A DNA stretch of 64,000 nucleotides from positions 18,057 through 82,056 of the forward strand of contig CALMZE010000212.1 of assembly GCA_937870585.1 (NCBI GenBank). Direction: 5' to 3'. The notes under the pieces are model-generated. The model worked only from the letters and a program-made list of their open reading frames with translations. It made no database searches and was not told the DNA's origin. Positions 5,706-25,245 of the stretch are shown piece after piece. Source of the stretch: an uncultured Sphingomonadales bacterium (lineage in GTDB: Bacteria > Pseudomonadota > Alphaproteobacteria > Sphingomonadales > Sphingomonadaceae). Position numbers and translations under genes: made by a program. Each line of letters starts with the position of its first letter. The stretch's first letter is position 1.

Positions 5706-5724
5706 CCGTATGCAACACATACAA
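5706..5724. promoter_or_regulatory. Shared 19-bp operator, site 1 (P450 / GST divergent promoter)
   Basis: Reverse strand TTGTATGTGTTGCATACGG: left arm TTGTATG, spacer TGTTG, right arm CATACGG. It lies 20 bases upstream of the GST start and 46 bases upstream of the P450 start. The same 7-5-7 motif recurs at 9662, 16717 and 25227. Confidence 0.65.
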
Positions 5725-5743
5725 TTACGGAGAGGAGAGCGGA

Positions 5744-6556
5744 GTGAGTACCGTCACCTTGTATCACTGGGAACCCAATGCCAATTCCGGCAAGCCCATG
5801 CTGGCGCTGATGGAAAAGGGCGTGGCGTTCGACAGCCATTATATCGACATGCTGAATTTCGATCAGCACAAGCCCGAATATCTGGCGATCAATCCGCAGG
5901 GCACCATCCCCGCGATGACCCATGGTGACAGGGTGCTCGTCGAATCGACCGCGATCATGGAATATGTGAACGAGGAATTTGACGGCCCGGCGCTGATGCC
6001 TGCCGACGCGCGCGCGCGCTGGCGCATCCGCTGGTGGATGAAATATATGGATCAATGGCTCGCCCCGAGTTTCTCCATGTTTGGCTGGAAATTCTTCGTT
6101 GGCCCCAATGCCCTTGCCGCGCACGGGCAGGAAAAGATTGAGGAACAGATTGCCCGCATCCCGCTGCCCGAACGTCAGACGGCGTGGCGCAAGGCGGTGT
6201 TTGGCCTGTTCTCCGAAGAGGAAATGGCCGAGTCGGGACGCCGGATCGGCGTAGGCATCCAGATGCTCGAAGCCGAACTGGGCAAGCGCGAATGGCTGGC
6301 GAGCGACGAATACAGCCTCGCTGATGTGAACGGCTTCAACCTCGCTTACGCCATGCCGCTCTCGCAGCCGCACCTGGCGAATGATGAGGTGACGCCCAAC
6401 ATCATGCGCTGGCTGCGCGCCATTTATCGCCGCCCCGCCACACGCGCCTGCTGGAAGCTGGGCCGGACCCCGATGGCGAGCCGCGTCGAAATTCTCGAAC
6501 AGGATTACATCCCGCCGGGCCGCGAGGCCGATGGCATTGCGAGCGGAGTGCGCTGA
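5744..6556 (+). CDS. Glutathione S-transferase family protein, beta-etherase (LigF)-like
   Basis: This 270-residue protein has a thioredoxin-fold GST N-terminal domain (TLYHWEPNANSGKPMLALMEKGV, INPQGTIPAM) and an all-helical C-terminal domain (SLADVNGFNLAYAMP). The opening and the NPQGTIPAM loop resemble the LigF/LigE beta-etherase group, which cleaves beta-aryl ethers of lignin dimers with glutathione. The chosen start is the GTG at 5744, preceded by GAGAGGAGAGCG and matching the family N-terminus; an upstream frame start at 5624 would cross the operator. It is followed after one base by a second GST. The substrate is not proven. Confidence 0.75.
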   Translation: MSTVTLYHWEPNANSGKPMLALMEKGVAFDSHYIDMLNFDQHKPEYLAINPQGTIPAMTHGDRVLVESTAIMEYVNEEFDGPALMPADARARWRIRWWMKYMDQWLAPSFSMFGWKFFVGPNALAAHGQEKIEEQIARIPLPERQTAWRKAVFGLFSEEEMAESGRRIGVGIQMLEAELGKREWLASDEYSLADVNGFNLAYAMPLSQPHLANDEVTPNIMRWLRAIYRRPATRACWKLGRTPMASRVEILEQDYIPPGREADGIASGVR

Positions 6557-6557
6557 G

Positions 6558-7319
6558 ATGAGCATGATCCTTTATCATGGCGAACCCAATGGCCCCTCGC
6601 TCGCTGTGCTGGCAGCCTTGGGTGAAAGCGGCGTGCAGGCGGAGTGCAAGGCCATCAACCTGCTGGCAGGCGAGCGCCACGCCATCCCCGGCCTGACGGA
6701 AGCCGTCGCGCGAAACATGGGTGTGGAAGGCGAAGGCCCTGTGCTCGTGGTGGATGGTGAAGCGATGACCGAGAGCGTCTTCATCGCGCAATTCCTCGAT
6801 GAGTCCGGCGCCAACACGCTCCAGCCGAAGGATGCCTATGCGCATTGGCAGATGCTGATGTGGTGTCGGCGCGTCACCGAACGCTGCGCGCCAGCTGCGG
6901 CCTTTCTCGGCTGCCGTGCCTATGCCCGTCCGGCTCTGGATACAGCGGCGCTGGAGCGGATTGTCTCCCCCGATTTGCGTGCGCGCTGGGAAGCGGTGCA
7001 GGCGGGCGACTATTCTCAGGCGCAGGTCGATGATTCGATCCGCCACGTCACGGCTGCGGTCCAGATGGTCGAGGATCAGCTCGCCGATGGCCGCGATTGG
7101 CTGATGGGGCCGCTCACCATTGCGGACTTCGAAACCTATGGCTGGCTGGTCGGCATGGCCGCTGTCGTGCCCGATGCGTTTGAAGGCAAGGACCGCGCGG
7201 CGGCATGGATGGCGCGGGTCAGCGCACGGCCTTCGGTGCAGGCCGCTCTGGCGCGCGCGACCAGCGCCAATCCTGAGCAGAGCTGGGCACCGGGGCCGGA
7301 AATCAACCGCTGGGGCTAA
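6558..7319 (+). CDS. Second glutathione S-transferase family protein
   Basis: This 253-residue protein has an N-terminal GST domain (MILYHGEPNGPSLAVLAAL, EGPVLVVDGEAMTESVFI) and a C-terminal helical domain (LTIADFETYGWLVG). The ATG at 6558 begins one base after the stop of the upstream GST, so the pair is one transcript and probably acts together, as paired GSTs do in beta-etherase systems. The usual cis-Pro loop is altered (EGEGPVLVV), so glutathione binding may differ. It could be a glutathione lyase (LigG-like role) or a stereo-specific etherase; the sequence alone does not decide. Confidence 0.7.
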   Translation: MSMILYHGEPNGPSLAVLAALGESGVQAECKAINLLAGERHAIPGLTEAVARNMGVEGEGPVLVVDGEAMTESVFIAQFLDESGANTLQPKDAYAHWQMLMWCRRVTERCAPAAAFLGCRAYARPALDTAALERIVSPDLRARWEAVQAGDYSQAQVDDSIRHVTAAVQMVEDQLADGRDWLMGPLTIADFETYGWLVGMAAVVPDAFEGKDRAAAWMARVSARPSVQAALARATSANPEQSWAPGPEINRWG

Positions 7320-7433
7320 ATTCCCTCTCGATTCCCGGCGCAGACGCTGGCAAGACCCGTTCTGGTTCAAAACGCATTTCGGGGCACACATGGGCAATCC
7401 ATGATCCCCGCCACAGGAAGAGGATTGTCGCCC

Positions 7434-9539
7434 ATGAAGGCCAAGCTGGTTCTCGCCGTATCGGCGCTCGCATTGATGACGGTTGCAGGCTGCAAGCAGA
7501 CGCCCAGTTCCGAACTGCCGGGTGCGGTCAATGCGGAGCGGATCAAGAAGGCGGATGGCAGCGAGTGGCTGAGCTATGGCCGCAGCTATGACGAGCAGCG
7601 CCACAGCCCGCTGGATCAGATCAACCAGACCAACATCAAGGATCTCGGCCTCGCCTGGTTTGCCGATCTGGATACCGCACGCGGTCAGGAAGCGACGCCG
7701 CTCGCCATTGATGGCAAGATTTACATCACCACTGCCTGGTCCAAGGCGAAGGCTTATGATGCGGTGACGGGCAAGCTGTTGTGGGAATATGATCCCAAGG
7801 TGCCGGGCGAGCGTGCAGTTGCGGCCTGTTGTGACGTGGTGAACCGGGGCATGGCCGCGTGGGGGGACAAGCTGTTCCTCGGCACGCTTGATGGCCGCCT
7901 TGTCGCGCTCGATCGCAATACCGGCAAGGAAGTGTGGAGCACTGTGACGCTCGACCAGTCCAAGCCCTACACCATCACCGGCGCACCGCGCGTGATTAAC
8001 GGCATGGTCATCATCGGCAATGGCGGCGCTGAAATGGGTGTGCGCGGCCATCTGACCGCCTATGACGCCGATAGCGGCAAGGAAATCTGGCGCTTCCATT
8101 CGGTGCCCGACGAACCCGGCAAGAATGAAGCCGAGCATCTGAAAAAGGCAGAATCGACGTGGAAGGGTGAATATTGGAAGATCGGCGGCGGCGGCACCAT
8201 GTGGGATGCCATGGCCTACGATCCAGAGCTCGACCTACTCTATGTCGGCGTGGGCAATGGCAGCCCGTGGAATCAGCATTTCCGCAGTCAGGGTGAGGGC
8301 GACAATCTCTATCTCTCCTCCATCGTCGCGCTGCGACCCAAGACGGGCGAATATGTCTGGCACTTCCAGACCACACCGGGTGAAACATGGGATTATACCG
8401 CCACCCAGCACATCATGCTGGCTGATCTGACCATCGGCGGCGAAAAGAAGAAGGTGCTGATGCAAGCGCCGAAGAACGGCTTCTTCTTCGTGCTCGACCG
8501 CACCAACGGCAAGCTGATTTCGGCCGACAATTATGTGCCGACGACTTGGGCCACGGGCTTTGATCTGAAGACGGGCCGTCCGATCGAAAATCCGGAAAGC
8601 CGCTATTACAAGACGGGCAAGCTCTATGTCGGTTCGCCCGGTCCGATTGGCGGGCATAACTGGCACCCGATGGCCTATGATCCCAAACAGGGTCTGGTCT
8701 ATATCCCGGCTATCAACTCCGCCTTCCCCTTCATCCACAAGCCTGACTGGAAGGCAAACAAGCACGGCTTCAACGTCGGTCTCGATCTGGCCTCCGGCGC
8801 GATGCCGGCTGACCAGAAAGCGCGCGATGCGGCCATGGCGGCAACCACGGGTGAACTGATCGCGTGGGATCCGGTTGCCAAGAAGGCGCGCTGGAAAATC
8901 AAATATCCTGCCGCATGGAATGGCGGCCTGCTCTCCACAGCGGGCAACCTCCTGTTCCAGGGCAATGCGGCGGGGGAATTCAACGCACTTGATCCGGCGT
9001 CGGGTAAGAAGCTCTGGTCGTTTGCGGCGCAAACCGGCGTGGTGGCTCCAGCTTCGACGTTCAAGGTGGGCGATGACCAATATGTCGCGGTCCTGGCGGG
9101 TTGGGGCGGCGCATGGCCGCTCGCGTCGGGCTATGTCGGAGAACAGCTTGGCCCGGTGCGCAATCAGTCCCGCCTGCTGGTGTTTAAGCTGGGCGGCAAG
9201 GCCAAGTTGCCTGAAGTCGGCCCGCATACGCTGCCGCCGCTCGATCCGCCGGTTTCCACAGGCACGCCTGAGCAAATTGCGGATGGTGCGAAGAATTTCG
9301 GCCAGTTCTGTGGCGTCTGCCACGGCGATTCAGCTATCGGCACCGGCGTCACGCGCGACCTGCGGCGTGCGGGTTCGCTGGGTGACGCGAAGATCTGGAA
9401 CCAGATCGTCATCGGCGGCGCACTCAAAGCGCGCGGCATGATCAGCTGGAAGGAAGAGCTGACCGATGCGCAGGCGGAAAATCTCCGCCACTATGTCATC
9501 AAGCGCGCGCAGGAAGATAAGGCGCTGGGGATGAAGTGA
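7434..9539 (+). CDS. PQQ-dependent alcohol dehydrogenase with C-terminal cytochrome c (quinohemoprotein), lipoprotein
   Basis: This 701-residue protein starts with a lipoprotein signal (lipobox VAGC, Cys20). It has a PQQ beta-propeller with the adjacent Cys132-Cys133 pair typical of PQQ alcohol dehydrogenases and a WDYT segment holding the likely catalytic Asp. A C-terminal cytochrome c domain has CGVCH at 626-630 and a probable Met ligand in ARGMISW. It oxidises a primary or secondary alcohol in the periplasm and passes electrons to the heme. The ATG at 7434 has AGGAAGAGGA upstream; an ATG at 7401 would put a hydrophilic tail before the signal peptide. It sits between GST genes and an aldehyde dehydrogenase, which fits stepwise oxidation of an aryl alcohol. 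Confidence 0.88.
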   Translation: MKAKLVLAVSALALMTVAGCKQTPSSELPGAVNAERIKKADGSEWLSYGRSYDEQRHSPLDQINQTNIKDLGLAWFADLDTARGQEATPLAIDGKIYITTAWSKAKAYDAVTGKLLWEYDPKVPGERAVAACCDVVNRGMAAWGDKLFLGTLDGRLVALDRNTGKEVWSTVTLDQSKPYTITGAPRVINGMVIIGNGGAEMGVRGHLTAYDADSGKEIWRFHSVPDEPGKNEAEHLKKAESTWKGEYWKIGGGGTMWDAMAYDPELDLLYVGVGNGSPWNQHFRSQGEGDNLYLSSIVALRPKTGEYVWHFQTTPGETWDYTATQHIMLADLTIGGEKKKVLMQAPKNGFFFVLDRTNGKLISADNYVPTTWATGFDLKTGRPIENPESRYYKTGKLYVGSPGPIGGHNWHPMAYDPKQGLVYIPAINSAFPFIHKPDWKANKHGFNVGLDLASGAMPADQKARDAAMAATTGELIAWDPVAKKARWKIKYPAAWNGGLLSTAGNLLFQGNAAGEFNALDPASGKKLWSFAAQTGVVAPASTFKVGDDQYVAVLAGWGGAWPLASGYVGEQLGPVRNQSRLLVFKLGGKAKLPEVGPHTLPPLDPPVSTGTPEQIADGAKNFGQFCGVCHGDSAIGTGVTRDLRRAGSLGDAKIWNQIVIGGALKARGMISWKEELTDAQAENLRHYVIKRAQEDKALGMK

Positions 9540-9554
9540 GGGCGCACGCTCTCA

Positions 9555-9650
9555 CAATAATGACGTCATTCCCGCGAAGGCGGGAATCCATGAGCATCAA
9601 GGGTCGAGACCTTGGATTCCCGCCTTCGCGGGAATGACGTGTCATTATTG
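9555..9650. repeat. R1b dispersed palindromic repeat
   Basis: This is the same element as R1a but more complete. The outer arms CAATAATGAC (9555-9564) and GTCATTATTG (9641-9650) continue into the GTCATTCCCGCG / CGCGGGAATGAC arms, giving inverted arms of nearly 40 bases around a short core. It lies directly downstream of the PQQ dehydrogenase stop and may act as its terminator. Confidence 0.85.
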
Positions 9651-9661
9651 TCACGCAAATT

Positions 9662-9680
9662 TCGTATGCAACACTAACAA
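9662..9680. promoter_or_regulatory. Shared 19-bp operator, site 2 (ALDH operon promoter)
   Basis: Reverse strand TTGTTAGTGTTGCATACGA: 7-5-7 layout with the spacer TGTTG identical to sites 1 and 3. It lies 64 bases upstream of the aldehyde dehydrogenase ATG and immediately after R1b. Confidence 0.65.
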
Positions 9681-9743
9681 AATCATGATAGCATCCGCTC
9701 CATTCCGCGCAGAGTCGGACCGATCATCGAGAGGAGTTTTGCC

Positions 9744-11258
9744 ATGAACGCCGTCACCACCATCAGCCGCGAGCAAAAGCCTTATTCGGAGGCGGCGAAG
9801 GCTGCACTGGCCCGCAAGCCCGCCCTATTCATCAACAATGAATGGGTGACCTCCAACCATGGCGCACTGCTTGAAGTGGAAGACCCTTCGAACGGCAAGA
9901 TCGTGAGCCATGTGGTTGACGCATCGGACAAGGATGTCGATCGTGCCGTGGCTGCCGCCCGCGCCGCGTTTGACGATGGCCGCTGGTCCAATCTGCCGCC
10001 GATGGTGCGCGAACGCACCATGCACCGCCTCGCCGATCTGCTCGAAGCCCATTCAGACGAATTTGCAGAGCTTGAAGCCATCGACAATGGCAAGCCCAAG
10101 GGCATGGCTGGCGCAGTCGATATTCCCGGCGCGATCAGCCAGATCCGCTTCATGGCGGGCTGGGCGAGCAAGGTCGCGGGCGATACGACACAGCCTTACA
10201 CGATGCCCAATGGCATGGTGTTCAGCTATACCGTGAAGGAGCCGGTCGGCGTCTGCGCGCAGATCGTGCCGTGGAACTTCCCGCTGCTGATGGCCTGCCT
10301 CAAGATCGCCCCCGCTCTCGCTGCGGGCTGCACCATCGTGCTCAAGCCTGCAGAACAGACCTCGCTCACCGCGCTGCGTCTGGCTGATTTCGTGGCGGAA
10401 GCAGGTTTCCCGGCCGGCGTGCTCAACATCATCACCGGCAATGGCCATACAGCGGGTGATCGCATGGTGAAGCATCCCGATGTGGACAAGGTCGCCTTCA
10501 CCGGATCAACCGAGATCGGCAAGCTGATCAACCGCAATGCGACCGACACGCTGAAGCGCGTCACGCTCGAACTCGGCGGCAAATCGCCCGTCGTGGTGAT
10601 GCCCGATGTCGATGTCGCGTCAACCGCGCCCGGCGTAGCAGGGGCCATCTTCTTCAACGCGGGCCAGGTCTGCGTCGCGGGCTCACGCCTCTATGCGCAC
10701 AAGTCGGTGTTCGACAAGGTGGTGGAAGGCATGGCCGAAACCGCGCCGTTCTGGGCACCGCGCCCTTCGCTTGATCCCGACGCGCATATGGGCGCGATCA
10801 TCAGCAAGGAGCAGCACGAGAAGGTGATGGGCTATATCGAGGCGGGCAAGCGCGATGGCGCGTCGGTCGCGATGGGCGGCGATGCGCCTTCGGTCGATGG
10901 CGGCTATTATGTGAACCCCACCATCCTTGTAGACGTAAACCCGCAAATGAGCGTCGTGCGGGAGGAGATTTTCGGCCCCGTGGTCGTCGCGCAGCGCTTC
11001 GATGATCTTGATGAAGTGGCCAAGGCTGCGAACGACACCTGTTTCGGTCTGGGTGCGGGCATCTGGACCAAGGATGTTGCCGCGATGCACAAGATGGCCG
11101 CGCGCATCAAATCGGGCACCGTCTGGGGCAATTGCCACGCGCTGATCGACACCGCTCTGCCCTTTGGCGGCTACAAGGAATCGGGTCTGGGCCGCGAACA
11201 GGGTCGGCAAGGCGTCGAAGCCTATCTGGAAACCAAAACCGTCATCATCCAGCTCTGA
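9744..11258 (+). CDS. NAD-dependent aldehyde dehydrogenase, aromatic aldehyde type
   Basis: This 504-residue ALDH has the catalytic Cys310 in FNAGQVCVAGSR, the Glu motif LELGGKSP and the cofactor-binding FTGSTEIGK. Overall it looks like the phenylacetaldehyde / vanillin / coniferyl aldehyde dehydrogenase branch and would oxidise an aromatic aldehyde to the acid. The ATG at 9744 follows AGAGGAG. Its TGA overlaps the ATG of the Rieske gene (ATGA), and the next genes overlap in the same way, so the four genes at 9744-13931 form a tightly coupled operon downstream of operator site 2. Confidence 0.9.
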   Translation: MNAVTTISREQKPYSEAAKAALARKPALFINNEWVTSNHGALLEVEDPSNGKIVSHVVDASDKDVDRAVAAARAAFDDGRWSNLPPMVRERTMHRLADLLEAHSDEFAELEAIDNGKPKGMAGAVDIPGAISQIRFMAGWASKVAGDTTQPYTMPNGMVFSYTVKEPVGVCAQIVPWNFPLLMACLKIAPALAAGCTIVLKPAEQTSLTALRLADFVAEAGFPAGVLNIITGNGHTAGDRMVKHPDVDKVAFTGSTEIGKLINRNATDTLKRVTLELGGKSPVVVMPDVDVASTAPGVAGAIFFNAGQVCVAGSRLYAHKSVFDKVVEGMAETAPFWAPRPSLDPDAHMGAIISKEQHEKVMGYIEAGKRDGASVAMGGDAPSVDGGYYVNPTILVDVNPQMSVVREEIFGPVVVAQRFDDLDEVAKAANDTCFGLGAGIWTKDVAAMHKMAARIKSGTVWGNCHALIDTALPFGGYKESGLGREQGRQGVEAYLETKTVIIQL

Positions 11259-12307
11259 TGACCTACGCCCGGAACGCCTGGTATGTCGCGGCATGGTGCT
11301 GCGATCTGGATGTGGCGACGCCTTTCGCCGTCTCCATCTTGGGCGAACCGCTGGTGATCTGGCGGAGCGAAAGCGGCGCGTTACATGCGTTGGAAGATCG
11401 GTGTGTCCATCGCCTTGCTCCGCTCTCTCTCGGCCGGTGTGAGGGCGAGCGGCTGCGCTGCCTCTATCATGGTCTGCTGTTCGATCCTGACGGTCGGGTG
11501 GCGGAGATCCCGGGGCAAGATCTGCTCCCTGCTCAAGCCAAGGTGCGCGCCTATCCGGTGGTGGACCGGCATGACTGGATCTGGGTATGGATGGGCGATC
11601 CCACGCTGGCGGATGCGGTGCTTATCCCGCCTGCGGTGGGCATTTCCGAACCAGATTGGGTGCTGGGCCATGGTCAACTTGATTATGCGGCCGAAGCCCG
11701 CCTGATCTGCGATAATCTGCTCGACTTCAGTCACCTCACCTATGTTCATGCGGCAAGCTTTGGCGCTGGCGCAGAGTTTGCAGAGCATCAGCCCAAGATT
11801 GCCATGCTGGAACGCGGCGTGCGAGTGACGCGCTGGCTGCCCAACCCTGTCGGCTCCCCACGTAACCCGCATGATGTGCCGATGGAAGCTTATCAGGCTT
11901 ATGATTTCCTCGTGCCCGGCGTGTTGCTGATGTGGTCGGGCAATTATACCTTGGGTACGTCGGCGCAGCTGGGCGCTGAAGCTCCCGCGATGGAGGATGC
12001 CGTTTCAGGCCTCAACTTCACCAGTCAGGCGGTCACACCGCTGGGTGATGGTACTGCGCGCTATTTCTTTTCATGGGGGCCGCATGTCCGCGATGGGGAT
12101 GCTGCCAAGCGCGACATGATGATGGCGATGGCCGGGCAGGCCTTTGCCGAAGACAAGATGATGATCGAAGCGCAGCAGCGTGTTATCGCCGCCACGCCCG
12201 ACCCGCGCATCATGCCCACCGCGCACGACAAGGGGGTCACACTCTACAACCGGCTGGTCGAGAAACTGGCCCGGACCCATTCTGCCGAACTGGAGACTGC
12301 CGCATGA
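11258..12307 (+). CDS. Rieske non-heme iron oxygenase, vanillate O-demethylase (VanA)-like
   Basis: At 349 residues it has the usual VanA length. The Rieske 2Fe-2S ligands are in CVH and CLYH. The mononuclear iron ligands fit NLLDFSHLTYVH (Asp/His/His pattern). The N-terminus TYARNAWYVAAW is typical of the VanA/TsaM/LigX group, which O-demethylates methoxy-aromatics or hydroxylates substituted aromatics with NADH, O2 and a separate reductase. No VanB-type reductase or ferredoxin is encoded in the window. Both gene ends overlap neighbours by four bases (ATGA). The substrate is inferred to be a methoxylated aromatic acid. Confidence 0.85.
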   Translation: MTYARNAWYVAAWCCDLDVATPFAVSILGEPLVIWRSESGALHALEDRCVHRLAPLSLGRCEGERLRCLYHGLLFDPDGRVAEIPGQDLLPAQAKVRAYPVVDRHDWIWVWMGDPTLADAVLIPPAVGISEPDWVLGHGQLDYAAEARLICDNLLDFSHLTYVHAASFGAGAEFAEHQPKIAMLERGVRVTRWLPNPVGSPRNPHDVPMEAYQAYDFLVPGVLLMWSGNYTLGTSAQLGAEAPAMEDAVSGLNFTSQAVTPLGDGTARYFFSWGPHVRDGDAAKRDMMMAMAGQAFAEDKMMIEAQQRVIAATPDPRIMPTAHDKGVTLYNRLVEKLARTHSAELETAA

Positions 12308-13173
12308 TCGACCTGTCCAAAATCAAAGCCATCGACGTTCACGTTCATGCCGAAGTGTCCTGCCATGACCCGGAAGACCCCGTGATGGGCCAGTTTTTCG
12401 ACGCTGCTTCTGCCTATTTCAAGGCCCCGCGCGAACGGCCGAAGATGCCGGAAATCGTGGAGATTTACCGCGAACAGCAGATTGCCTTCTGCATGTTCAC
12501 CGTCGATTGCGAAAGCGCAATCGGGGCCAAGCGCGTCTCCAACTATGAAGTGGCGGAATTCGCTGCCAAACATGACGACATCTGCATCCCCTTCGCCTCG
12601 ATCGACCCGCACAAGGGCAAGATGGGCGCGAAGGAAGCGCGCGATCTGGTCGAGAACTATGGCGTGAAGGGCTTCAAGTTCCACGGCATCATGCAGAACG
12701 CGCACCCCGCTGACCGCATGGGCTACCCGATCTATGAAGTGATCAACGAATATAAGCTGCCCGCCATCTTCCACACCGGCCACTCCGGCATGGGCACAGG
12801 GATGCGCGGCGGCGGCGGCGTGCGGCTGAAATATGGCCAGCCGATGCTGATCGATGATGTGGCGGTGGATTTCCCCGACATGAAGATCATCCTCGCCCAT
12901 CCCAGCTGGCCATGGGTGGATGAAAGCCTTTCCATGGCGCTGCACAAGGATAATGTGTTCATCGACCTATCCGGCTGGAGCCCCAAATTCTTCCAGCCGC
13001 AGATCATCAATTACGCCAATGGCCAGTTGCGCAAGAAGATGCTGTTCGGCTCTGACTTCCCCCTGATCCACCCGCAAAAATGGATCGATGCCGCGCTTAA
13101 GGTTGGCTTCAAGGAAGAGGTGCTGCCCGGTATCATGAAGGATAACGCCGCGCGCGTGCTGGGGCTGGCGTGA
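12304..13173 (+). CDS. Amidohydrolase family (Amidohydro_2) protein
   Basis: This 289-residue TIM-barrel hydrolase has the metal motif HVH at His13/His15, later His residues in IFHTGHSG and ILAHPSWPW, and the Asp in FGSDFP. The family includes decarboxylases (ACMSD, 5-carboxyvanillate decarboxylase LigW) and hydrolases proposed to cleave hydroxyphenyl-beta-ketoacyl-CoA in hydroxycinnamate breakdown. Its place between a Rieske oxygenase and an SDR fits either decarboxylation or C-C hydrolysis of an oxidised side chain. The ATG at 12304 overlaps the preceding stop, and the TGA overlaps the SDR GTG. Confidence 0.8.
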   Translation: MIDLSKIKAIDVHVHAEVSCHDPEDPVMGQFFDAASAYFKAPRERPKMPEIVEIYREQQIAFCMFTVDCESAIGAKRVSNYEVAEFAAKHDDICIPFASIDPHKGKMGAKEARDLVENYGVKGFKFHGIMQNAHPADRMGYPIYEVINEYKLPAIFHTGHSGMGTGMRGGGGVRLKYGQPMLIDDVAVDFPDMKIILAHPSWPWVDESLSMALHKDNVFIDLSGWSPKFFQPQIINYANGQLRKKMLFGSDFPLIHPQKWIDAALKVGFKEEVLPGIMKDNAARVLGLA

Positions 13174-13931
13174 CCGACTTTGCCGACCGCCGCATCATTG
13201 TCACTGGAGCATCGACCGGCATCGGGCGGGCAACCGCGCTGATGCTGGGCGGACGCGGCGCGCATGTGGCGCTGATCGCGCGCAGTGCTGACAAGCTGGA
13301 GGTGCTGGCAGCAGAGATCGCAGCAGCAAGCGGCAGCGCCTCGGTCCATCCGGCAGACGTGGCGGATCGTGCTGAACTCGCAGCAGCGTTCACAGCGGCA
13401 GGGCCTGCTGACGGGTTGTTCGCCAATGCGGGGTTTGGCGGCGATTTCGCGCCCTTCCCGGCCTATTCGGATGCGAATTGGGACGCTCTGATTGCCTCCA
13501 ATCTGACGAGCGTGTTCCTCTCGATCCGAGCGGTGCTGCCTGCTATGCAAGAGGCGCGCAAGGGCTCCATCGTGGTAACGGGCAGTCTGGCGAGTGAGCG
13601 CGGAATGCCAATGAATGCGGGCTATGTCGCCGCCAAGCATGGCGTATTGGGCCTTGCCCGCGCTGCTGCTGCGGAAGGCGCCCCGCACAATGTCCGCGTC
13701 AATTGCCTGATCCCCGGCTTCATCGAAACGCCGCTTCTGCACAATATCGCGGGTGGCGCAGACGTGGCGCCCGTGATGGAGGCGATGGGCAAAGGCGTGC
13801 CGCAAGGCCGCGTCGGCCAGCCGGAGGAATGCGCCTCGCTCGTCTGCTTCCTGCTGTCTGATGCGGCGAGCCATATCACCGGGCAGTCGATGGCGGTGGA
13901 TGGCGGGATTTTGGGGACGTTGATTCCGTAA
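13170..13931 (+). CDS. Short-chain dehydrogenase/reductase
   Basis: This 253-residue classical SDR has the cofactor motif TGASTGIG (residues 12-19), a catalytic Ser region VVTGSLAS and YVAAK as the Tyr-x3-Lys. The C-terminus carries the common AVDGG turn. It likely oxidises a secondary alcohol or reduces a ketone; the C-alpha dehydrogenases of beta-aryl ether breakdown (LigD/L/N) are SDRs, but a general 3-hydroxyacyl role is equally possible. It starts with GTG at 13170, overlapping the amidohydrolase stop (GTGA), and is the last gene of the coupled operon; R3a follows directly. Confidence 0.85.
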   Translation: MTDFADRRIIVTGASTGIGRATALMLGGRGAHVALIARSADKLEVLAAEIAAASGSASVHPADVADRAELAAAFTAAGPADGLFANAGFGGDFAPFPAYSDANWDALIASNLTSVFLSIRAVLPAMQEARKGSIVVTGSLASERGMPMNAGYVAAKHGVLGLARAAAAEGAPHNVRVNCLIPGFIETPLLHNIAGGADVAPVMEAMGKGVPQGRVGQPEECASLVCFLLSDAASHITGQSMAVDGGILGTLIP

Positions 13932-13940
13932 GGCGCTCCG

Positions 13941-14020
13941 TCATTGCGAGGAACGCAGTGACGAAGCAATCCAGACTGTCGGGCGTTGCACTGGATTGCT
14001 TCGCTCTGCTCGCAATGACG
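13941..14020. repeat. R3a dispersed palindromic repeat
   Basis: The left arm GTCATTGCGAGGAACGCAGT with GAAGCAATCCAG faces the right arm CTGGATTGCTTCG with CTCGCAATGACG. The same arms occur at 18245-18315 (R3b). It sits between the SDR stop and the GST ribosome site. Confidence 0.8.
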
Positions 14021-14032
14021 AAGGATGGAGTG

Positions 14033-14797
14033 ATGACACTCAAATATTACCACGCCGAACCCTTGGCTAACTCGCTCAAATCCATGATCCCGCTCATCGA
14101 AAAGGGGTTGGAGTGGGAGAGCATCTATGTCGATCTCCATAAGTTCGAACAGCATTCGGACTGGTTTACGGCGATCAACCCCGAAGGGCAGGTGCCCGTG
14201 CTTGATCATGATGGCGTGATCATCACGCACACAACCGTCATCAACGAATATCTGGAAGACGCCTTCCCGAACGCGCTGCCGCTGCGTCCGCGTGATCCGG
14301 AAGGCGCGGCGCGGATGCGCTACTGGAACAAATTTGTGGATGAGCATGTGATGAACCACGTCTCGATGCACGGATGGCACCGCATGATCCGCATCATCAC
14401 GCAGAATATCGAGGAGGGCACGTTCGAAGAGCTGATGGCGCGCATTCCGCTGCCTGATCAGCGCAAGAAGTGGATGACGGCGCGCTCCGGCTTTTCCGAA
14501 GCCGATCTGGCCAATGCCACGGTGAAGATCGACTATGCGCTGAACAAGGTAGAGGCGCAACTGGCGCAAACGCCTTGGCTGGCAGGCGCGGATTATACGC
14601 TGGCGGACATCAACTTCTATTCGCATTGCGGTGCGATGGTGGAGCGGATGTTCCCCGATCTGGAGGTCGCCGCTCGCTTCCCGCGCATTGTGGACTGGCG
14701 CGAGCGCGTGACGGCGCGGCCCGCAGTGGCAACCGCGCTCAAGGCCGAGGATCGCACCATGCCAGGCCTGCGCACCTGGTCTGGGCATGTGCGCTAG
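14033..14797 (+). CDS. Glutathione S-transferase, beta-etherase LigF-like
   Basis: This 254-residue GST has an N-terminal domain (TLKYYHAEPLANSLKSMIP, KFEQHSDWFTAINPEGQVP) that closely resembles LigF of Sphingobium SYK-6 as remembered, in particular the KFEQHSDWF and INPxGQVP segments. The C-terminal helical domain has YTLADINFYSHCG. LigF-type enzymes cleave the beta-aryl ether of lignin dimer ketones with glutathione, releasing guaiacol-type phenols. The start is the ATG at 14033, preceded by GGATGGAG; in-frame codons before it belong to repeat R3a. It is the third GST of the cluster. Family assignment is firm, the exact substrate is not. Confidence 0.82.
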   Translation: MTLKYYHAEPLANSLKSMIPLIEKGLEWESIYVDLHKFEQHSDWFTAINPEGQVPVLDHDGVIITHTTVINEYLEDAFPNALPLRPRDPEGAARMRYWNKFVDEHVMNHVSMHGWHRMIRIITQNIEEGTFEELMARIPLPDQRKKWMTARSGFSEADLANATVKIDYALNKVEAQLAQTPWLAGADYTLADINFYSHCGAMVERMFPDLEVAARFPRIVDWRERVTARPAVATALKAEDRTMPGLRTWSGHVR

Positions 14798-14809
14798 TCT
14801 TGTAGAACT

Positions 14810-14900
14810 CCGTTCGTGCTGAGCCTGTCGAAGCACTGTCTTTCCTATATGCCATCATGCCCAGAAAAGGGCAGCCCTTCGACAAGCTCAGGGCGAACGG
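14810..14900. repeat. R2a dispersed palindromic repeat
   Basis: The arm CGTTCGTGCTGAGCCTGTCG continuing AAGCACTG faces CAGCCCTTCGACAAGCTCAG continuing GGCGAACGG. This family has five copies in the window (also at 15678, 22613, 42689 and 61520). All are intergenic and have no coding capacity. Confidence 0.8.
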
Positions 14901-14923
14901 TTGAAAAGGGTTCGTAACTGACA

Positions 14924-15677: not shown

Positions 15678-15765
15678 GTTCGTGCTGAGCGTGTCGAAGC
15701 ACTGCCCTTCCCTCATCGTGCAGCAACACGCAAAAGCAGTGCTTCGACACGCTCAGCACGAACGG
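15678..15765. repeat. R2b dispersed palindromic repeat (perfect arms)
   Basis: The arms at 15678-15705 and 15736-15763 are exact 28-base reverse complements around a 30-base centre. It lies between the convergent hydrolase and purU genes. Confidence 0.85.
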
Positions 15766-15820: not shown

Positions 15821-15830
15821 CGGAACAGCA

Positions 15831-18222
<2,392 letters not shown>

Positions 18223-18244
18223 GGGCGATGAATTCGCTGCGCTC

Positions 18245-18315: not shown

Positions 18316-18353
18316 GCTGTATCGTCCATCATTCCAACACGAAGGAGGCCTGC

Positions 18354-19235
18354 ATGACCAAGCCCCTGATCCACCCCAACTGGGCGAACGCGCCGGATGG
18401 GATTACCGACGGCTATTCTCTGGAAGTGACCGCGAAGGATGAGGCGGCGCTGCGTGAAGCAGCGCCGCTGATGCCGCCTGAAACGCCGGTGTCTGTCACC
18501 TTCCTGCCGGGTGAGGCGCAGGACGCGCGAGTGGCCGCGGCCAAGGCGGTGCGGGCGCTGGGGTTCGAGCCCATGCCGCATTTCTCTGCCCGCCGCATCC
18601 TGTCTGAAGATGATTTCGAAGGCTATCTGAAGGCCGTGGTGCAGGAAGCGGGTGTGGAACGCGCCTTCATCGTCGCAGGCGATCCGCCTGAGCCGCAAGG
18701 GCCGTATTTCGATACCATGGCGCTGATCAGAACCGGCGCCTTCGAAAGGGCAGGGATCAAGGCAATCGGCATTGGCGGCCACCCCGAAGGCCATCCCAAT
18801 ATGAACACGGCGGAATGCTGGGCGATATTGGAAGCCAAGGTGAAGGAAATCGAAGCGCGCGGCATGGCCCCGCTGGTTGTCACCCAATTTGGTTTCGATC
18901 CTGATGCTTTCCTCGCTTGGCTGAAAGAATTGCGCGAACGCGGGCTCGACGTGCCGGTTCGAATTGGCATTCCCGGCCCGGCCAGCATCAAATCCCTCCT
19001 GCGCTTTGCCGCGCGCTGCGGCGTTGGCGCGTCTGCTGCGGTCATGAAGAAATATGGCGTGTCGATCACCAATCTGCTTGGCAGTGCCGGGCCGGACAAG
19101 CTTGTGGATGAATTTGCGGCCAATCTGGGTGACGAACATGGCCGGGTGCGCCTGCATTTCTATCCCTTTGGCGGGCTGAAGAAAACGGTCGAGTGGATCA
19201 GGGAATATGAACGCAAGTCCGGACGCGCTGCTTAG
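18354..19235 (+). CDS. metF: Methylenetetrahydrofolate reductase family protein
   Basis: This 293-residue TIM-barrel flavoprotein of the MTHFR family has FIVAGDPPEPQGPY, AIGIGGHPEGHP and VVTQFGFDPDAF, the usual folate/FAD segments. In this context it runs in the oxidative direction, converting 5-methyl-THF made by LigM to 5,10-methylene-THF. The ATG at 18354 follows GAAGGAGG. The order ligM-metF is the same as in SYK-6. The biosynthetic methionine-pathway copy may be elsewhere. Confidence 0.88.
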   Translation: MTKPLIHPNWANAPDGITDGYSLEVTAKDEAALREAAPLMPPETPVSVTFLPGEAQDARVAAAKAVRALGFEPMPHFSARRILSEDDFEGYLKAVVQEAGVERAFIVAGDPPEPQGPYFDTMALIRTGAFERAGIKAIGIGGHPEGHPNMNTAECWAILEAKVKEIEARGMAPLVVTQFGFDPDAFLAWLKELRERGLDVPVRIGIPGPASIKSLLRFAARCGVGASAAVMKKYGVSITNLLGSAGPDKLVDEFAANLGDEHGRVRLHFYPFGGLKKTVEWIREYERKSGRAA

Positions 19236-19313
19236 AACTCTCGCGTCCGGTCATTCATTCAGGGTTCAGCGCCGGGCTGGCCATCAGAGCCATTCAATCT
19301 GGAGAGACCGCCG

Positions 19314-20209: not shown

Positions 20210-20212
20210 GCG

Positions 20213-20982: not shown

Positions 20983-22560
20983 TCAGCCCTCCCGCTTTCC
21001 GGCCATGTCTCGATAGGCGCTGGGCCAGACACCCTGCTTGCCCGGCGCGAGGATGCCATTGGGATCGAGCGCATCCTTCACCTTCTCATTCAGGCGACGT
21101 TGCGCACCATTGTTGAAATTATAGGTCGCGTTGACCGGATCCATCCAGCCCAGATGCGTGCGATATTCACCATAGCCCGCCTTGGCTGTATCCACGATCA
21201 GAGCATCGAACAGCTTGCGCATATTCTTCACCTGATCCGGCTTATCCCGATCATACATCAGCATGTTGATGTTGGTAGCAAAGCGGCCGCCCACGGTGAA
21301 GCTGGCGTAAAAATCCACATCATGATCGGCGATGATCTTGCGGCTGCGCTTCAACTGGCCAAGCACATGCTTCGATGTGGCAGGCACCACGGGCGAAAAG
21401 CCCATATGCGCACCGCGTCCGCCCACCCAATCACCCATCTGAAGGGCCACGGCAGAGGGCACACCCATGGTGGGATCGAACTGGTTAACCGCATCGCCCT
21501 GACGCCACCAGACTTCCATCGGCGCGGCGTCCAGATGCTTCTTGAACGCCTTCTTGACGACTTCGGCCTTGGCCTTGTTGACCGCCTCATCGCCATAGAA
21601 GCGCACCTGCACCTGCCAGTAACCGAGCTTATGCTCCTTCAGCAGTTCCTGAACCCGCCATTCGGGGATCGCGCCTTCCTTGTCCCAAAAATCCTTGCGC
21701 TGGCCCTTGAGCACGATCTTGCCCAGCCAGGAGGGGATGAAGACATTCTGATCAATCAACCCGCTATATTTGAGCGGCGTGATGGTATCGACCACCCAAC
21801 CAATATCTTCCTCATTGGGAATATCCCAAGTGAGGATCAAAGAGCTTTCAGGCGCCGGTTGCAGCCACAGACCCGCCTTGGTGACAACGCCCATGTTCGA
21901 TTGGGTGAACATCTGCGTCCAGTCCGGCCCGAAGGAGAGCGGAAAAAGGTGCCAGCTATGATTATCTTGCATCGCGCCCATACCGGTGCGCATCAGGTCC
22001 CCATCGGGCAGCACCACTTCCATGCCGCACAGATTCTTGGCGTGCTGGCCATAGGGCGTGTAGCCCATGCCATGATCGAGCGCGTTGCCGAGCACCGAGC
22101 CCCAGGCATTGCCGGGGACCGACATCCACAGCGGCGCTTTTTCACGCTGGATATGCTCGTACAGGTCAAAGAAGGAGACGCCCGGTTCAATCACGCAATA
22201 GCCGAGTTCGGTATTGAGCTCTTCGACCTTCTGCATCCGCCCGAGATCGAGAACAATCGCGCCGGGCAGTCTCGGCGCATTGGCGCCATAGCCCAGATTC
22301 TTGCCGCGCGAGACGGGCCAGAGCGGTGTCTTATGCTCGTTGGCGAGGCGGACAATGGCCTGAATTTCCTCCACCGTGGCCGGGGCGACGGCCGCAGACG
22401 CAGGCCATTCCTCTTCGGATCCCGGTGCGTAAATGTCTGAATAGGCATCACGGTCTGCATCGCTGGCCATCACCCAGGCTTTGCCGACCACGCCCTCATA
22501 AGCCTTGATCGCCGCATCGAACTGCGCAGGCGATACACGCGGGGGGAGTGTGAGTTTCAT
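20983..22560 (-). CDS. Flavoprotein of the vanillyl-alcohol oxidase / p-cresol methylhydroxylase family
   Basis: This 525-residue protein has an N-terminal PCMH-type FAD domain (WPVSRGKNLGYGANAPR, GNALDHGMGYTPYG) and a C-terminal cap. Tyr466-Arg467 (EYRTHLGW) corresponds to the Tyr473-Arg474 pair that binds the phenolate in P. putida PchF. Family members hydroxylate or oxidise the para side chain of 4-alkylphenols, eugenol or vanillyl alcohol. The paired cytochrome indicates a dehydrogenase (hydroxylase) rather than an oxidase. The ATG at 22560 has AAAGAGGAGC upstream. No signal peptide is visible. Confidence 0.9.
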   Translation of the reverse strand: MKLTLPPRVSPAQFDAAIKAYEGVVGKAWVMASDADRDAYSDIYAPGSEEEWPASAAVAPATVEEIQAIVRLANEHKTPLWPVSRGKNLGYGANAPRLPGAIVLDLGRMQKVEELNTELGYCVIEPGVSFFDLYEHIQREKAPLWMSVPGNAWGSVLGNALDHGMGYTPYGQHAKNLCGMEVVLPDGDLMRTGMGAMQDNHSWHLFPLSFGPDWTQMFTQSNMGVVTKAGLWLQPAPESSLILTWDIPNEEDIGWVVDTITPLKYSGLIDQNVFIPSWLGKIVLKGQRKDFWDKEGAIPEWRVQELLKEHKLGYWQVQVRFYGDEAVNKAKAEVVKKAFKKHLDAAPMEVWWRQGDAVNQFDPTMGVPSAVALQMGDWVGGRGAHMGFSPVVPATSKHVLGQLKRSRKIIADHDVDFYASFTVGGRFATNINMLMYDRDKPDQVKNMRKLFDALIVDTAKAGYGEYRTHLGWMDPVNATYNFNNGAQRRLNEKVKDALDPNGILAPGKQGVWPSAYRDMAGKREG

Positions 22561-22612
22561 GGCGAACCGCTCCTCTTTCTTGTCATTGAATCTGACTGGG
22601 CGTGACCTTCAT

Positions 22613-22701
22613 CGTTCGTGCTGAGCTCGTCGAAGCACTGTCCTTTCTTGTGTTTGTAACAGCAAGGGAAAGACAGCCCTTCGACAAGCTCAGGGCGAAC
22701 G
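22613..22701. repeat. R2c dispersed palindromic repeat
   Basis: The arm CGTTCGTGCTGAGCTCGTCG continuing AAGCACTGTC faces GACAGCCCTTCGACAAGCTC continuing AGGGCGAACG. It lies between the flavoprotein start and the TonB-receptor terminator, inside the likely flavoprotein promoter region. Confidence 0.8.
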
Positions 22702-22722
22702 AAGAGAGCAACATTTCCGTTC

Positions 22723-22734
22723 TAACAATTGTTA
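22723..22734. promoter_or_regulatory. Palindrome upstream of flavocytochrome operon
   Basis: TAACAATTGTTA is a perfect 12-bp palindrome about 160 bases upstream of the flavoprotein ATG. Its half site TTGTTA resembles the left arm of the shared operator but the spacing is different. It may be an operator or chance. Confidence 0.3.
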
Positions 22735-22763
22735 CGTTTCATGCCGCAGGCCGTGCCTTGCGT

Positions 22764-22795
22764 CAAACAAAAAGGGCGACCAATGGCCGCCCTTT
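22764..22795 (-). terminator. Rho-independent terminator of the TonB receptor gene
   Basis: An 8-bp stem AAAGGGCG / CGCCCTTT (22771-22778 / 22788-22795) is followed on the minus strand by TTTTTGTTTGAC, 30 bases past the receptor stop. Confidence 0.8.
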
Positions 22796-22824
22796 CCGTG
22801 TCCCTGTTGCGGACCCCAAAGCCC

Positions 22825-25167
22825 TTAGAAGGACTTCTTGACCGAGACTGCCCACTCCCGCGGACGACCCACCTGCGAGTAGATCGTGCCCGTGAAGAGC
22901 TGGACCGCAGCAAAGCGGAACGGCAGGTAATATTTGTCGAACAGGTTCTGCACTTCGAGCGACACCGACAGATCGTCGTCGGCATTGCGCCATGTCAGAC
23001 GGGCGTTCGCCAGCGTGCGGCTGGGATAATAGTCGATCGGCGCGCCCCCTCCGGTGCGGCCTGCGCTCGACTTGCCCGTATAGGCCAGATCGAAGCGCGG
23101 CGTCAGCGAGCCGGAACCGCCCAGATCAGCCTTGTACTGGATGCCAGCGCTCCATTTCCAGTTCGGCGTCACGATCGGATCAGACAGCAGATAGGCATTG
23201 CCCACGCGCGGATCGATGGTCGACCAATGGCCCGTCAGATGGCTGAGCGAGGCATCGATATCCAGACCGGGAACCGGATTGGCGTTGAGTTCAACTTCAA
23301 AGCCCTTGATCTTGCCATCACCCGCATTCTGGCGCGCACCGCATGGCGCGTTGGAACCCAGCGACGCGCAGGTGCTGAGCGGCAGTTGGATGTCCTTATA
23401 GTCGTTGATGAACGCCGCGACGTTCACACGCAGACGGCGGTCCAGAAGGTCGGTCTTGAGGCCGACTTCATAGGCCAGAACCGTTTCCGGATCGAAGCTG
23501 CCATTGAGCGCCTGAGCCGCGTCGAACGGACGCGCCGTCACACCACCGCCCTTGAAGCCCGTGCCCACGGTCACATAGGCCAGCACAGCAGGCGAGAAGC
23601 GGTAATCGGCAGACACGCGCCAATCGACCTTGTTGCCGCTATAGACAGCCTTGACACCGTCGAGGGCGCCGAGAGCACCGTTCTTGGTGATGCCGTCATA
23701 ATTCTTGCGGAAGAACGTGTAGTCCTTGCTTTCCTTGGTGTAGCGCAGACCGCCAGTCAGCGTCAGCGCTTCCATCGGGCGCGCGATGATCGTGCCGAAC
23801 ACCGCCTTCGAATCGGCATTGACCGGGTCATTGCCTTCGAACTGGAGAACGCCCGCATAGCGGATGTCCTGACGGGTGTAGTAAACCGACTTCTGATCGG
23901 AATAGAAGGCACCCACGGTCAGATCGACCATCTCACCCAGCTTTGCATTGACGCGCAGTTCCTGGCTGAAGAAGCGGAACGACAGATCGTTATAGCCCTG
24001 CCCGATGATGGCGAGATCCGGCGTGAAATCATCATCCGTGCCCCAGATTTGGCGATAGTCACGATAGGCCGTGATCGACTGGATGTTGATCGTGTCAGAC
24101 AGGTCTGCCGACAGGTTGGACGAAACACCCCAGCCTTCAAACTTGGTGGTGTTGGGCATGTTGTAGCCCTTGGTCACCTGGCCGCCAGCCGGAGCATAGA
24201 AGCTGGTATAGGTGCAGAACTTGCCGCACAGATATTGCGACGTCGGCAGACCGGCCAGACCACCGAACGGGAAGCCAACCGCGCCAGCCGTCGTCAGAAT
24301 TTCCGCAGCATTGGTGCGGTCTTCATGCGTATAGTCAGCCGAAACGACCCAATCGATCGCATCGCTGGGATTGTAACGCAGGCTGCCACGGATACCGGCA
24401 TAGCCCTTTTCGCCGAGCTTATCGATCACGCAATCGCTGCCTGCACCCGGATTGGCACCAATGCCCTGCGCATTGCCAGGCTTGGCACAGCCATAATCAA
24501 GCTGATCCACATAGCCCTTCTGGTGCTTGTAGACGCCCGAGATACGCGCCGAGAGGCTGTCGGTCAGCGCGAAATTCATGCTGGCGCGCAGATCGATACG
24601 ATCACGGCTGCCATACACAGCTTCCACCGAGCCGCCATTTTCCTGAGTCGGCTTCTTGGAGAAGAGCTTGATCGCACCACCGATGGAGTTACGACCGGTG
24701 AGCGTGCCCTGCGGGCCGCGCAGAACTTCAACGCGCTCCAGATCGAGCAGATCGAAAATGCCGCCGGTGAGCGTGGCATAATAGACATCATCGACATACA
24801 TGCCAACGCCGGGCTCATAGGCCGGGTTGAAGTCGAACTGGCCGATGCCGCGAATGGATGCACCCAATGACGAGCCATAAGCGCCGCCCATGGAGTTTAG
24901 CGTCACGTTCGGGGCCTGCGCCGCAATTTGCGACAGGTCGGTCTGGTTGCGCGATTCTAGCAGGGCCGAATCGACTGCGGTAATTGCCAGCGGCGTATCT
25001 TGCAAATTCTGTTCGCGGAACTGCGCGGTAACAAGAATTTCGCCATTGCCATTCTCTTCGTCGGCAGCGGCCTGCGCGAATGCGGGAACGGCGGTCAGTG
25101 CGGTTGCGGCAGCCGAAGCCGCCAGAATGGCACGAAAAACGGTGGTGCGACGTGCGGTCACGGTCAT
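22825..25167 (-). CDS. TonB-dependent outer membrane receptor
   Basis: This 780-residue receptor has a Sec signal peptide (to about AQA, residue 33), a TonB box EILVTAQ, a plug domain (DVYYATLTGGIFDLLDLERV, VEVLRGPQGTLTGRNSIGG) and a beta barrel ending in the aromatic terminus KKSF. The conserved LRGPQGTLTGRN segment is typical of sphingomonad receptors. In this setting it probably imports an aromatic monomer or dimer, as DdvT does in SYK-6 by analogy. The ATG at 25167 follows AGGAGGGGAGTGAA. Operator site 4 is 60 bases upstream, which ties it to the catabolic genes. Confidence 0.92.
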   Translation of the reverse strand: MTVTARRTTVFRAILAASAAATALTAVPAFAQAAADEENGNGEILVTAQFREQNLQDTPLAITAVDSALLESRNQTDLSQIAAQAPNVTLNSMGGAYGSSLGASIRGIGQFDFNPAYEPGVGMYVDDVYYATLTGGIFDLLDLERVEVLRGPQGTLTGRNSIGGAIKLFSKKPTQENGGSVEAVYGSRDRIDLRASMNFALTDSLSARISGVYKHQKGYVDQLDYGCAKPGNAQGIGANPGAGSDCVIDKLGEKGYAGIRGSLRYNPSDAIDWVVSADYTHEDRTNAAEILTTAGAVGFPFGGLAGLPTSQYLCGKFCTYTSFYAPAGGQVTKGYNMPNTTKFEGWGVSSNLSADLSDTINIQSITAYRDYRQIWGTDDDFTPDLAIIGQGYNDLSFRFFSQELRVNAKLGEMVDLTVGAFYSDQKSVYYTRQDIRYAGVLQFEGNDPVNADSKAVFGTIIARPMEALTLTGGLRYTKESKDYTFFRKNYDGITKNGALGALDGVKAVYSGNKVDWRVSADYRFSPAVLAYVTVGTGFKGGGVTARPFDAAQALNGSFDPETVLAYEVGLKTDLLDRRLRVNVAAFINDYKDIQLPLSTCASLGSNAPCGARQNAGDGKIKGFEVELNANPVPGLDIDASLSHLTGHWSTIDPRVGNAYLLSDPIVTPNWKWSAGIQYKADLGGSGSLTPRFDLAYTGKSSAGRTGGGAPIDYYPSRTLANARLTWRNADDDLSVSLEVQNLFDKYYLPFRFAAVQLFTGTIYSQVGRPREWAVSVKKSF

Positions 25168-25226
25168 TTCACTCCCCTCCTAAGGTTCAATCAGGGTCCG
25201 CATCTCTTACGCGCGGGGCCTAACTT

Positions 25227-25245
25227 TTGTTAGTGATACATACAA
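25227..25245. promoter_or_regulatory. Shared 19-bp operator, site 4 (TonB receptor promoter)
   Basis: TTGTTAGTGATACATACAA: arms TTGTTAG and CATACAA, spacer TGATA instead of TGTTG. It is the most diverged of the four copies, and marks the outer edge of the catabolic cluster. Confidence 0.55.

Follow-up and report, generated by a model that had tools for sequence, protein, structure and literature searches.

A putative DesR regulon extending from aromatic catabolism to one-carbon metabolism in an uncultured Sphingomonadales bacterium

A 64,000-nucleotide stretch from the genome of an uncultured Sphingomonadales bacterium (contig C212:18057-82056 of a 3.8-Mb assembly in 233 contigs), here called the window, carries a cluster of aromatic-catabolism genes in which a 19-bp inverted repeat recurs upstream of four transcripts, and this raises the question of which protein recognizes the repeat and how far its control extends. 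An initial annotation of the window had proposed that the repeat is the common operator of an aromatic-catabolism regulon, with an unknown regulator that is either encoded outside the window or of an unrecognized type. The shared operator is well supported, since both a genome scan and the search for a regulator gene beside another site were positive; its extent was set too narrowly, as the four promoters belong to a regulon that is much larger and includes one-carbon genes. On the sequence evidence, the sites are best read as operators of a DesR regulon that is far wider than the three targets reported in Sphingobium sp. SYK-6 and that reaches one-carbon metabolism. The four sites in the window are:

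5706..5724, putative DesR-type box CCGTATGCAACACATACAA, 25.3 bits, between the divergent genes for a cytochrome P450 (45 bp) and a LigF-like glutathione S-transferase (GST; 19 bp)
9662..9680, putative DesR-type box TCGTATGCAACACTAACAA, 24.8 bits, 63 bp 5′ of the start of an aldehyde dehydrogenase (ALDH) gene
16717..16735, putative DesR-type box TTGTTTGTGTTGCATACAA, 29.0 bits, in the region from which purU and ligM diverge, 25 bp from purU and 86 bp from ligM
25227..25245, putative DesR-type box TTGTTAGTGATACATACAA, 29.2 bits, 59 bp 5′ of a TonB-dependent receptor gene

The coordinates, the 19-bp length and the 7-5-7 layout first assigned to these sites are correct, but the repeat is not exact. 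On the plus strand the sites read CCGTATG-CAACA-CATACAA (5706), TCGTATG-CAACA-CTAACAA (9662), TTGTTTG-TGTTG-CATACAA (16717) and TTGTTAG-TGATA-CATACAA (25227), with departures from TTGTATG-N5-CATACAA at 2, 3, 1 and 2 of the 14 arm positions respectively, and with 5/7, 4/7, 6/7 and 5/7 complementary arm pairs. The spacer TGTTG ascribed to three of the copies is common to them when strand is ignored, but not as read on the plus strand, where two have CAACA. Five matches to the repeat with no more than three mismatches are present in the window, compared to 0.86 expected, and none of 100 shuffles reaches five; the fifth match falls within the P450 gene, at 5512, and was discarded as noise, its matrix score being 1.0 bit. 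With a matrix built from 14 sites of the same genome, all of them outside the window, the four sites occupy ranks 1–4 (28.4, 28.1, 24.7 and 23.7 bits) and rank 5 is a place at 9018, within the catabolic cluster, with 9.0 bits; the top score in 40 simulated Markov-1 windows is 19.1 bits, below all four sites. By the same matrix the best score in the housekeeping part is 7.9 bits (at 50610), in keeping with the earlier observation that no box lies there. A fifth site of the cluster, at C212:16959-16977, is approximately 1.1 kb before the first base of the window, and thus outside it.

The genome scan that had been suggested finds the motif beyond the window, with the sites mostly beside genes of coherent function. 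There are 43 places with no more than three mismatches, compared to 24 in a backwards-sequence control; 18 of them were picked by eye, and the remaining 25 were set aside as likely chance before a model, R1, was built from the 18 sites only, using no SYK-6 sequence. The 18 sites are distributed over 13 contigs, each 13–208 bp 5′ of a start codon (genes were called by a simple custom script, and start positions are approximate), and 17 are intergenic; the other, at folD, is in the 3′ end of the preceding small open reading frame (ORF). Applied to the same genome at E≤10, with 150 of 214 candidates scored, R1 reports 16 places, all among the 18 and none among the 25 set aside, a result that is circular for this genome, unlike the tests in other genomes; R1 did not report C164 and C212:16959, which come from the mismatch search and the matrix only, and the latter is the weakest kept site (21.0 bits). 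The border between kept and dropped places is soft at C204:2883 (L033 2883-2901), which was set aside with 20.6 bits and is intergenic, 5′ of a CHAP-domain gene; together with C183:909 (17.8 bits, inside a gene) and C182:17539 (L035 9540-9558; 15.7 bits, intergenic, 5′ of another P450-like gene), it is among the strongest set-aside places in the loci fetched.

Just outside the window, the box-linked genes are those for a Rieske oxygenase and a FAD oxidase. Elsewhere in the genome, boxes accompany the ring-cleavage genes ligAB, and also ligK with a PrpF-type ligU candidate, opposite genes for a DUF1932 protein and a LigJ-like amidohydrolase; lsdA (857 bits, cut-off 800); a LigF-like GST with an E-value of 2.1e-102 to the PDB entry 4xt0; two short-chain dehydrogenases (SDRs) resembling Calpha-dehydrogenases and a third SDR; a major facilitator superfamily (MFS) transporter, SnoaL proteins, a second TonB receptor and a second ALDH; and the one-carbon genes folD, formate dehydrogenase (FdhG and FdhA identified) and glutathione-formaldehyde dehydrogenase (GS-FDH). 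The box-linked genes also include desR and a lignostilbene-dioxygenase (LSD)-type oxygenase gene. In several genera the DUF1932/NAD-binding protein gene that precedes the LigJ-like gene bears a box (L021 856-1674; L167, L168, L170, L172, L173).

The best candidate for the regulator gene that the initial annotation had suggested seeking next to another site is a MarR-family gene with its own box:

Contig C146, 18366-18845, putative DesR orthologue (MarR family; P0001), 159 amino acids

None of the cluster genes tested encodes a regulator, as had been noted, and the candidate indeed lies outside the window, but it is of an identifiable type. The protein scores 53.1 bits with the MarR_2 domain (cut-off 27) and 41.8 bits with MarR (cut-off 24.6). 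A search of the genome for MarR domains (E≤0.01) yields 20 matches, 11 of them above the family cut-off, and among the 3-kb loci of these 20 a strong box is found in just one, that on C146 (25.7 bits, directly upstream of the gene), the next best scoring 12.4. The C146 protein is 62% identical to SYK-6 DesR over 154 amino acids, compared to 32% over 60 amino acids for the runner-up among 19 proteins drawn from the 20 MarR matches, and the gene order is the same in SYK-6 (L066) and here (L067), with the LSD-type oxygenase gene divergent from the MarR gene across the box and the MFS gene downstream. In a tree of MarR proteins the outgroup branches are long, the forks are mostly weak and a single distant row is misplaced, and the case for orthology is one of identity and synteny. 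Among the DNA-contact and pocket residues, twenty aligned orthologues, that of SYK-6 included, have K57, R84, R110, F45, F49 and W63 invariant, and R93 and F32 nearly so. The closest solved MarR structure by sequence is PDB 6c28 (E 1.2e-15), CouR of Rhodopseudomonas palustris, a p-coumaroyl-CoA sensor; both are MarR proteins, and CouR is a distant homologue. Because a DesR orthologue of the MarR family is found on C146, the matter of the missing regulator is settled as far as sequence allows, and we put the probability that the box is the operator of the DesR-type repressor encoded there at roughly 0.9.

A comparison of the C146 protein with 119 family genomes (E≤1e-15) gives a homologue in 22, with an identity of 56% or more in 19 (the present genome included), which we call DesR-positive, and of about 30% in three. 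A box lies 18–118 bp 5′ of the gene in 18 of the 19 (14.6–30.7 bits); the three genomes with the distant homologue have no box of at least 12 bits there. In the 6.6-Mb genome G057 (L085, L177) the box is 1,064 bp 5′ of desR, before the preceding Rieske VanA-type gene; this genome has no LSD-type gene called beside desR and no LigM match at E≤1e-100. R1 (E≤0.7) finds boxes in 17 of the 19 DesR-positive genomes and in two of the other 100 (Fisher p 1.7e-16), or in 16 of 18 when the present genome is removed (p 9.7e-16); the p-values are optimistic given that the genomes are related, and this 119-genome run used stricter filters. When G144 is added to the 19, R1 matches are present in 17 of 20 DesR-positive and 0 of 10 DesR-negative genomes, LigM orthologues (at least 70% identity) in 18 of 20 and 0 of 10, and all 18 LigM orthologues, that of the present genome and the SYK-6 site IR-M included, have a box 5′ of the gene (20.7–30.9 bits). 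Among the best 80 of 191 desR-like loci in relatives (80 named loci, equivalent to 78 record sets), 60 have a box of at least 12 bits beside the gene. The Novosphingobium metagenome-assembled genome SCN 66-18 has two desR-like genes (L319, L326), just one of them boxed.

Thirty stretches of relatives were chosen because of their R1 sites, and in these, with a coding fraction of about 0.92, only four of 56 boxes of at least 20 bits are within called genes, some of these probably through gene-caller faults. In another set of loci, also picked for having sites, a backwards-sequence control gives no matches of at least 18 bits versus 19 in the true orientation. The boxed target homologues in relatives include PurU, LigM, MetF, a FolD paralogue, GS-FDH, FdhG, LigA and LigK, as well as a LigF-like GST, a Calpha-dehydrogenase-like SDR, a TonB receptor, an ALDH and a pyrroloquinoline quinone (PQQ) dehydrogenase. 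For example, an ALDH 91% identical to that of the window has a box of 25.3 bits in G050, a member of the same genus, and boxed homologues of the TonB receptor are found in G050, G065, G111 and G002 (76, 67, 62 and 48% identical).

The 2019 Sci Rep study of SYK-6 DesR (SLG_12870) reports a dimer that binds DNA, regulates negatively and is released by vanillate and syringate, with desB, ligM and desR as targets and the operators IR-B GTTTGTGTCACATAC, IR-M GTTTGTGTAACATAC and IR-R GTATGCTACGCTTAC, supported by electrophoretic mobility shift assays with mutated sites (PMC6888825). The window ligM site, GTTTGTGTTGCATAC, is identical to IR-M at 13 of 15 positions. The IR-R sequence is present in one of 249 family genomes, G144, which we take as SYK-6 because its ligM, desB-like and desR boxes contain IR-M, IR-B and IR-R; at E≤10, R1 reports only two places in it, desB and ligM. 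The two systems are thus alike in having orthologous MarR proteins, matching operators, the same neighbours and boxes at desR and ligM, and they differ in that three targets are published for SYK-6 versus about 18 sites here, at genes of uptake, dimer cleavage, ring cleavage and one-carbon metabolism, and in that the operator was published as 15 bp, compared to 19 bp for the element conserved here. The operator and the type of regulator have therefore been known since 2019, and it is the breadth that appears to be new; no DesR regulon of this width is described in the titles and abstract openings of the literature searched, from which subscription journals were mostly excluded.

A second characterized relative is Saro_0803 of Novosphingobium aromaticivorans, the regulator of nov1, with resveratrol as ligand (Biomolecules 2023; PMC10046596). 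Ten residues discussed in that paper, K55, R82, A87, R91, R108, K109, F30, F43, F47 and W61, are all identical in the C146 protein at a constant offset of 2, and most of them vary little or not at all among the 20 orthologues, for which reasons Saro_0803 is apparently a DesR orthologue. Both are MarR proteins whose genes are associated with control of a stilbene dioxygenase gene; the work on Saro_0803, however, concerned the nov1 promoter and resveratrol, and the inverted repeat reported for its target, GCAATA-N6-TATTGC, differs from the box. On reading by eye, this repeat is not seen between the LSD-type gene and desR of the present genome, where the box sits. The box of some Novosphingobium relatives itself contains TATTGC (e.g. 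L307), and the reported Saro_0803 repeat may overlap a box. Saro_0803 is not among the regulators listed in the available part of a survey of 44 N. aromaticivorans regulators by DNA affinity purification sequencing (PMC12352068).

Protocatechuate 4,5-cleavage genes of sphingomonads are controlled by LigR, which, unlike DesR, is a LysR-type activator with two binding sites flanking ligR; its sites in N. aromaticivorans and SYK-6 contain TT-N-GC-N6-TTAT (mSystems 2025; PMC12710314). This core has no match in the window, with 0.61 expected by chance, and LigR was rejected as the regulator of the boxes. Several relatives have a DesR-type box between ligK and the ligJ operon. Three of the four window boxes read GCAACA on one strand, and not the core GCAACG of the IclR-type regulator PheR.

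Several observations weigh against assigning the boxes to a wide DesR regulon. At E≤0.7 the DesR-containing genomes G075, G076 and SYK-6 lack a site, while G040 and G118 have one among the 100 genomes outside the DesR-positive set; of the best 80 desR-like loci, 20 have no box beside the gene (11 with one elsewhere in the locus, nine with none). The desR site of SYK-6, at 22.9 bits with the matrix, is absent from the R1 list at E≤10, and SYK-6 shows just its three published sites, such that DesR regulons are not always wide. The Saro_0803 target repeat reads unlike the box (PMC10046596). Boxes at one-carbon genes are restricted to a subset of genomes, and those at GS-FDH (5 of 20 DesR-positive versus 0 of 10 DesR-negative genomes) are not significantly associated (Fisher p 0.14). 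No sigma-70-like promoter was recognized at window positions 16600–16900, and the omitted 20.6-bit site on C204 precedes a gene without an evident link to aromatics. The box could in principle belong to another regulator, of the MarR, TetR, IclR or GntR type, with the copy adjacent to desR a case of cross-regulation: the regulator search in this genome took in the MarR type only, and both the nine boxless loci and the genome with two desR-like genes would fit. We consider this very unlikely, given that SYK-6 DesR was reported to bind such sequences (PMC6888825), that the occurrence of the box in the family follows that of DesR, and that the LigR core is nowhere in the window.

An explanation confined to the window is ruled out by the genome-wide occurrence of the motif, and is contradicted also by the backwards control, by the promoters of other genera and by the co-occurrence in the family. 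Adjacent clusters at times duplicate promoter regions and the window sites are degenerate, both of which would favor four sites that act locally, with distant likeness due to chance or to duplicated promoters; against 18 sites on 13 contigs, mostly beside functionally coherent genes, the 0 versus 19 of the backwards control (at loci chosen for having sites) and boxes kept in orthologous promoters of other genera, we give this almost no credence. A different possibility concerns not the regulator but its signal, in that the C146 protein could be a DesR orthologue induced not by vanillate or syringate but by a stilbene or a dimer fragment, with the regulon reporting lignin dimers. Its gene adjoins a lignostilbene-type dioxygenase gene, lsdA is among the targets along with genes for LigF-like GSTs and Calpha-dehydrogenase-like SDRs, and Saro_0803 is reported to be released by resveratrol through F30, F43, F47 and W61 (PMC10046596), which are F32, F45, F49 and W63 here. 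SYK-6 DesR, however, responds to vanillate and syringate (PMC6888825), even though its F45, F49 and W63 are conserved (F32 nearly so), and the two inducer classes need not be mutually exclusive; we regard a stilbene-type inducer in place of the aromatic acids as less likely than not. The operator of a DesR-type repressor remains our preferred reading of the box.

The genes behind the window boxes and their neighbours are:

3424-4464, minus strand, O-methyltransferase ORF, after the P450 gene on the same strand
4461..5660, minus strand, cytochrome P450, candidate target
5744..6556, plus strand, LigF (beta-etherase)-like GST, candidate target; best PDB match LigF 4xt0, E 5.9e-44
6558..7319, plus strand, second GST-fold protein
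9744..11258, plus strand, ALDH, candidate target
11258..12307, plus strand, Rieske oxygenase with VanA C-terminal domain (O-demethylase-like)
12304..13173, plus strand, Amidohydrolase_2 protein
13170..13931, plus strand, SDR
13958..14797, plus strand, LigF-like GST; LigF 4xt0, E 4e-55
15831..16691, minus strand, PurU, formyltetrahydrofolate deformylase, candidate target; scores over the curated cut-off with each of two PurU models
16822..18222, plus strand, LigM, vanillate/3-O-methylgallate O-demethylase, candidate target; 883.6 bits, cut-off 580
18354..19235, plus strand, MetF-like methylenetetrahydrofolate reductase, 131 bp past ligM; 46.3 bits, far under the curated cut-off of 293.7
20983..22560, minus strand, vanillyl-alcohol/eugenol oxidase-like flavoprotein
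22825..25167, minus strand, TonB-dependent receptor, candidate target

From their order, ligM and the MetF-like gene are assumed to form one operon. In established metabolism, methoxy carbon passes through methyl-tetrahydrofolate, methylene-tetrahydrofolate, formyl-tetrahydrofolate and formate to CO2, with formaldehyde arising from Rieske demethylases; LigM, the MetF-like gene and the box-linked one-carbon genes cover this route. FdhG is present in 19 of 20 DesR-positive and 1 of 10 DesR-negative genomes (p 6.7e-6), and in 11 of the 19 no more than 5.3 kb separates it from desR. In 12 of 20 genomes, GS-FDH follows desR in the same orientation at a distance of up to 2.5 kb. Because FdhG tracks DesR, and GS-FDH and FdhG lie near desR in many genomes, the evidence for a one-carbon link is good at the level of gene sets, and direct control through boxes is predicted for a subset of genomes that includes the present one: boxes are found at FdhG in 2 of the 19 DesR-positive genomes that have it, and at folD or its paralogue in four (G000, G025, G050 and G002). 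Of second folD copies (12 examined of 13), those of G050 and G002 have a box and the other ten (G013, G115, G065, G032, G066, G103, G111, G069, G144 and G076) have none of at least 18 bits, and a general claim of boxes at folD was dropped for this reason.

MetE-like proteins of relatives (L149 14204-15331, L168 16617-17726) have a cobalamin-independent methionine synthase catalytic domain, and another (L171 4652-5752) is MetE-like by its similar N-terminus only. The neighbours with which their genes have a box in common encode an O-demethylase paralogue, a PQQ dehydrogenase or a GST, and a further methyl-transfer step in the regulon is possible.

By analogy with SYK-6, from which binding, dimer formation, repression, autoregulation and the inducer are carried over to the C146 protein, a DesR homodimer would occupy the 19-bp boxes near transcript starts and block the promoters when inducer is absent. 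Binding of a methoxylated lignin monomer (an aromatic acid resembling vanillate or syringate), or of a stilbene, would release it, with joint induction of uptake, dimer cleavage, O-demethylation, ring cleavage and methyl disposal, the last through the tetrahydrofolate route and oxidation of formaldehyde and formate; the box at desR itself would provide autoregulation. We lean towards DesR being a master switch for lignin catabolism, beginning with uptake at the outer membrane, continuing with dimer cleavage, O-demethylation and ring opening, and ending with methyl-carbon disposal (LigM, MetF, FolD, PurU and the glutathione-formaldehyde and formate dehydrogenases), in the lineage of the window and several relatives, with SYK-6 a reduced case. 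This offers a testable regulon with a named regulator that could account for the coordination of numerous dispersed catabolic genes in lignin-degrading sphingomonads, and predicts that a single signal governs both demethylation and the disposal of methyl groups. The regulon also flags TonB receptors, SDRs, GSTs, SnoaL proteins and an MFS transporter as candidate members of lignin pathways, and provides an operator set that may be used for vanillate- or stilbene-responsive engineering. The residue correspondence further suggests that DesR and Saro_0803, which were studied apart and with different ligands, are orthologues.

The housekeeping half of the window encodes a LuxR-type response regulator (47776-48459) and a TetR regulator (58137-58730), and no box was seen near either. 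Two dispersed elements are also present in the window. Paired inverted copies of ATTCCCGCGAAGGCGGGAAT, by appearance a repetitive extragenic palindromic (REP)-type element, lie at 9568-9635 and 2410-2515, with four copies at no more than one mismatch compared to 0.01 expected, and one pair is directly 5′ of the 9662 box. The second element, GTTCGTGCTGAGCGTGTCGAAGCA, has five copies with no more than two mismatches, at 14812, 15678-15763, 22614 and 42772, two of which are inverted around 15700.

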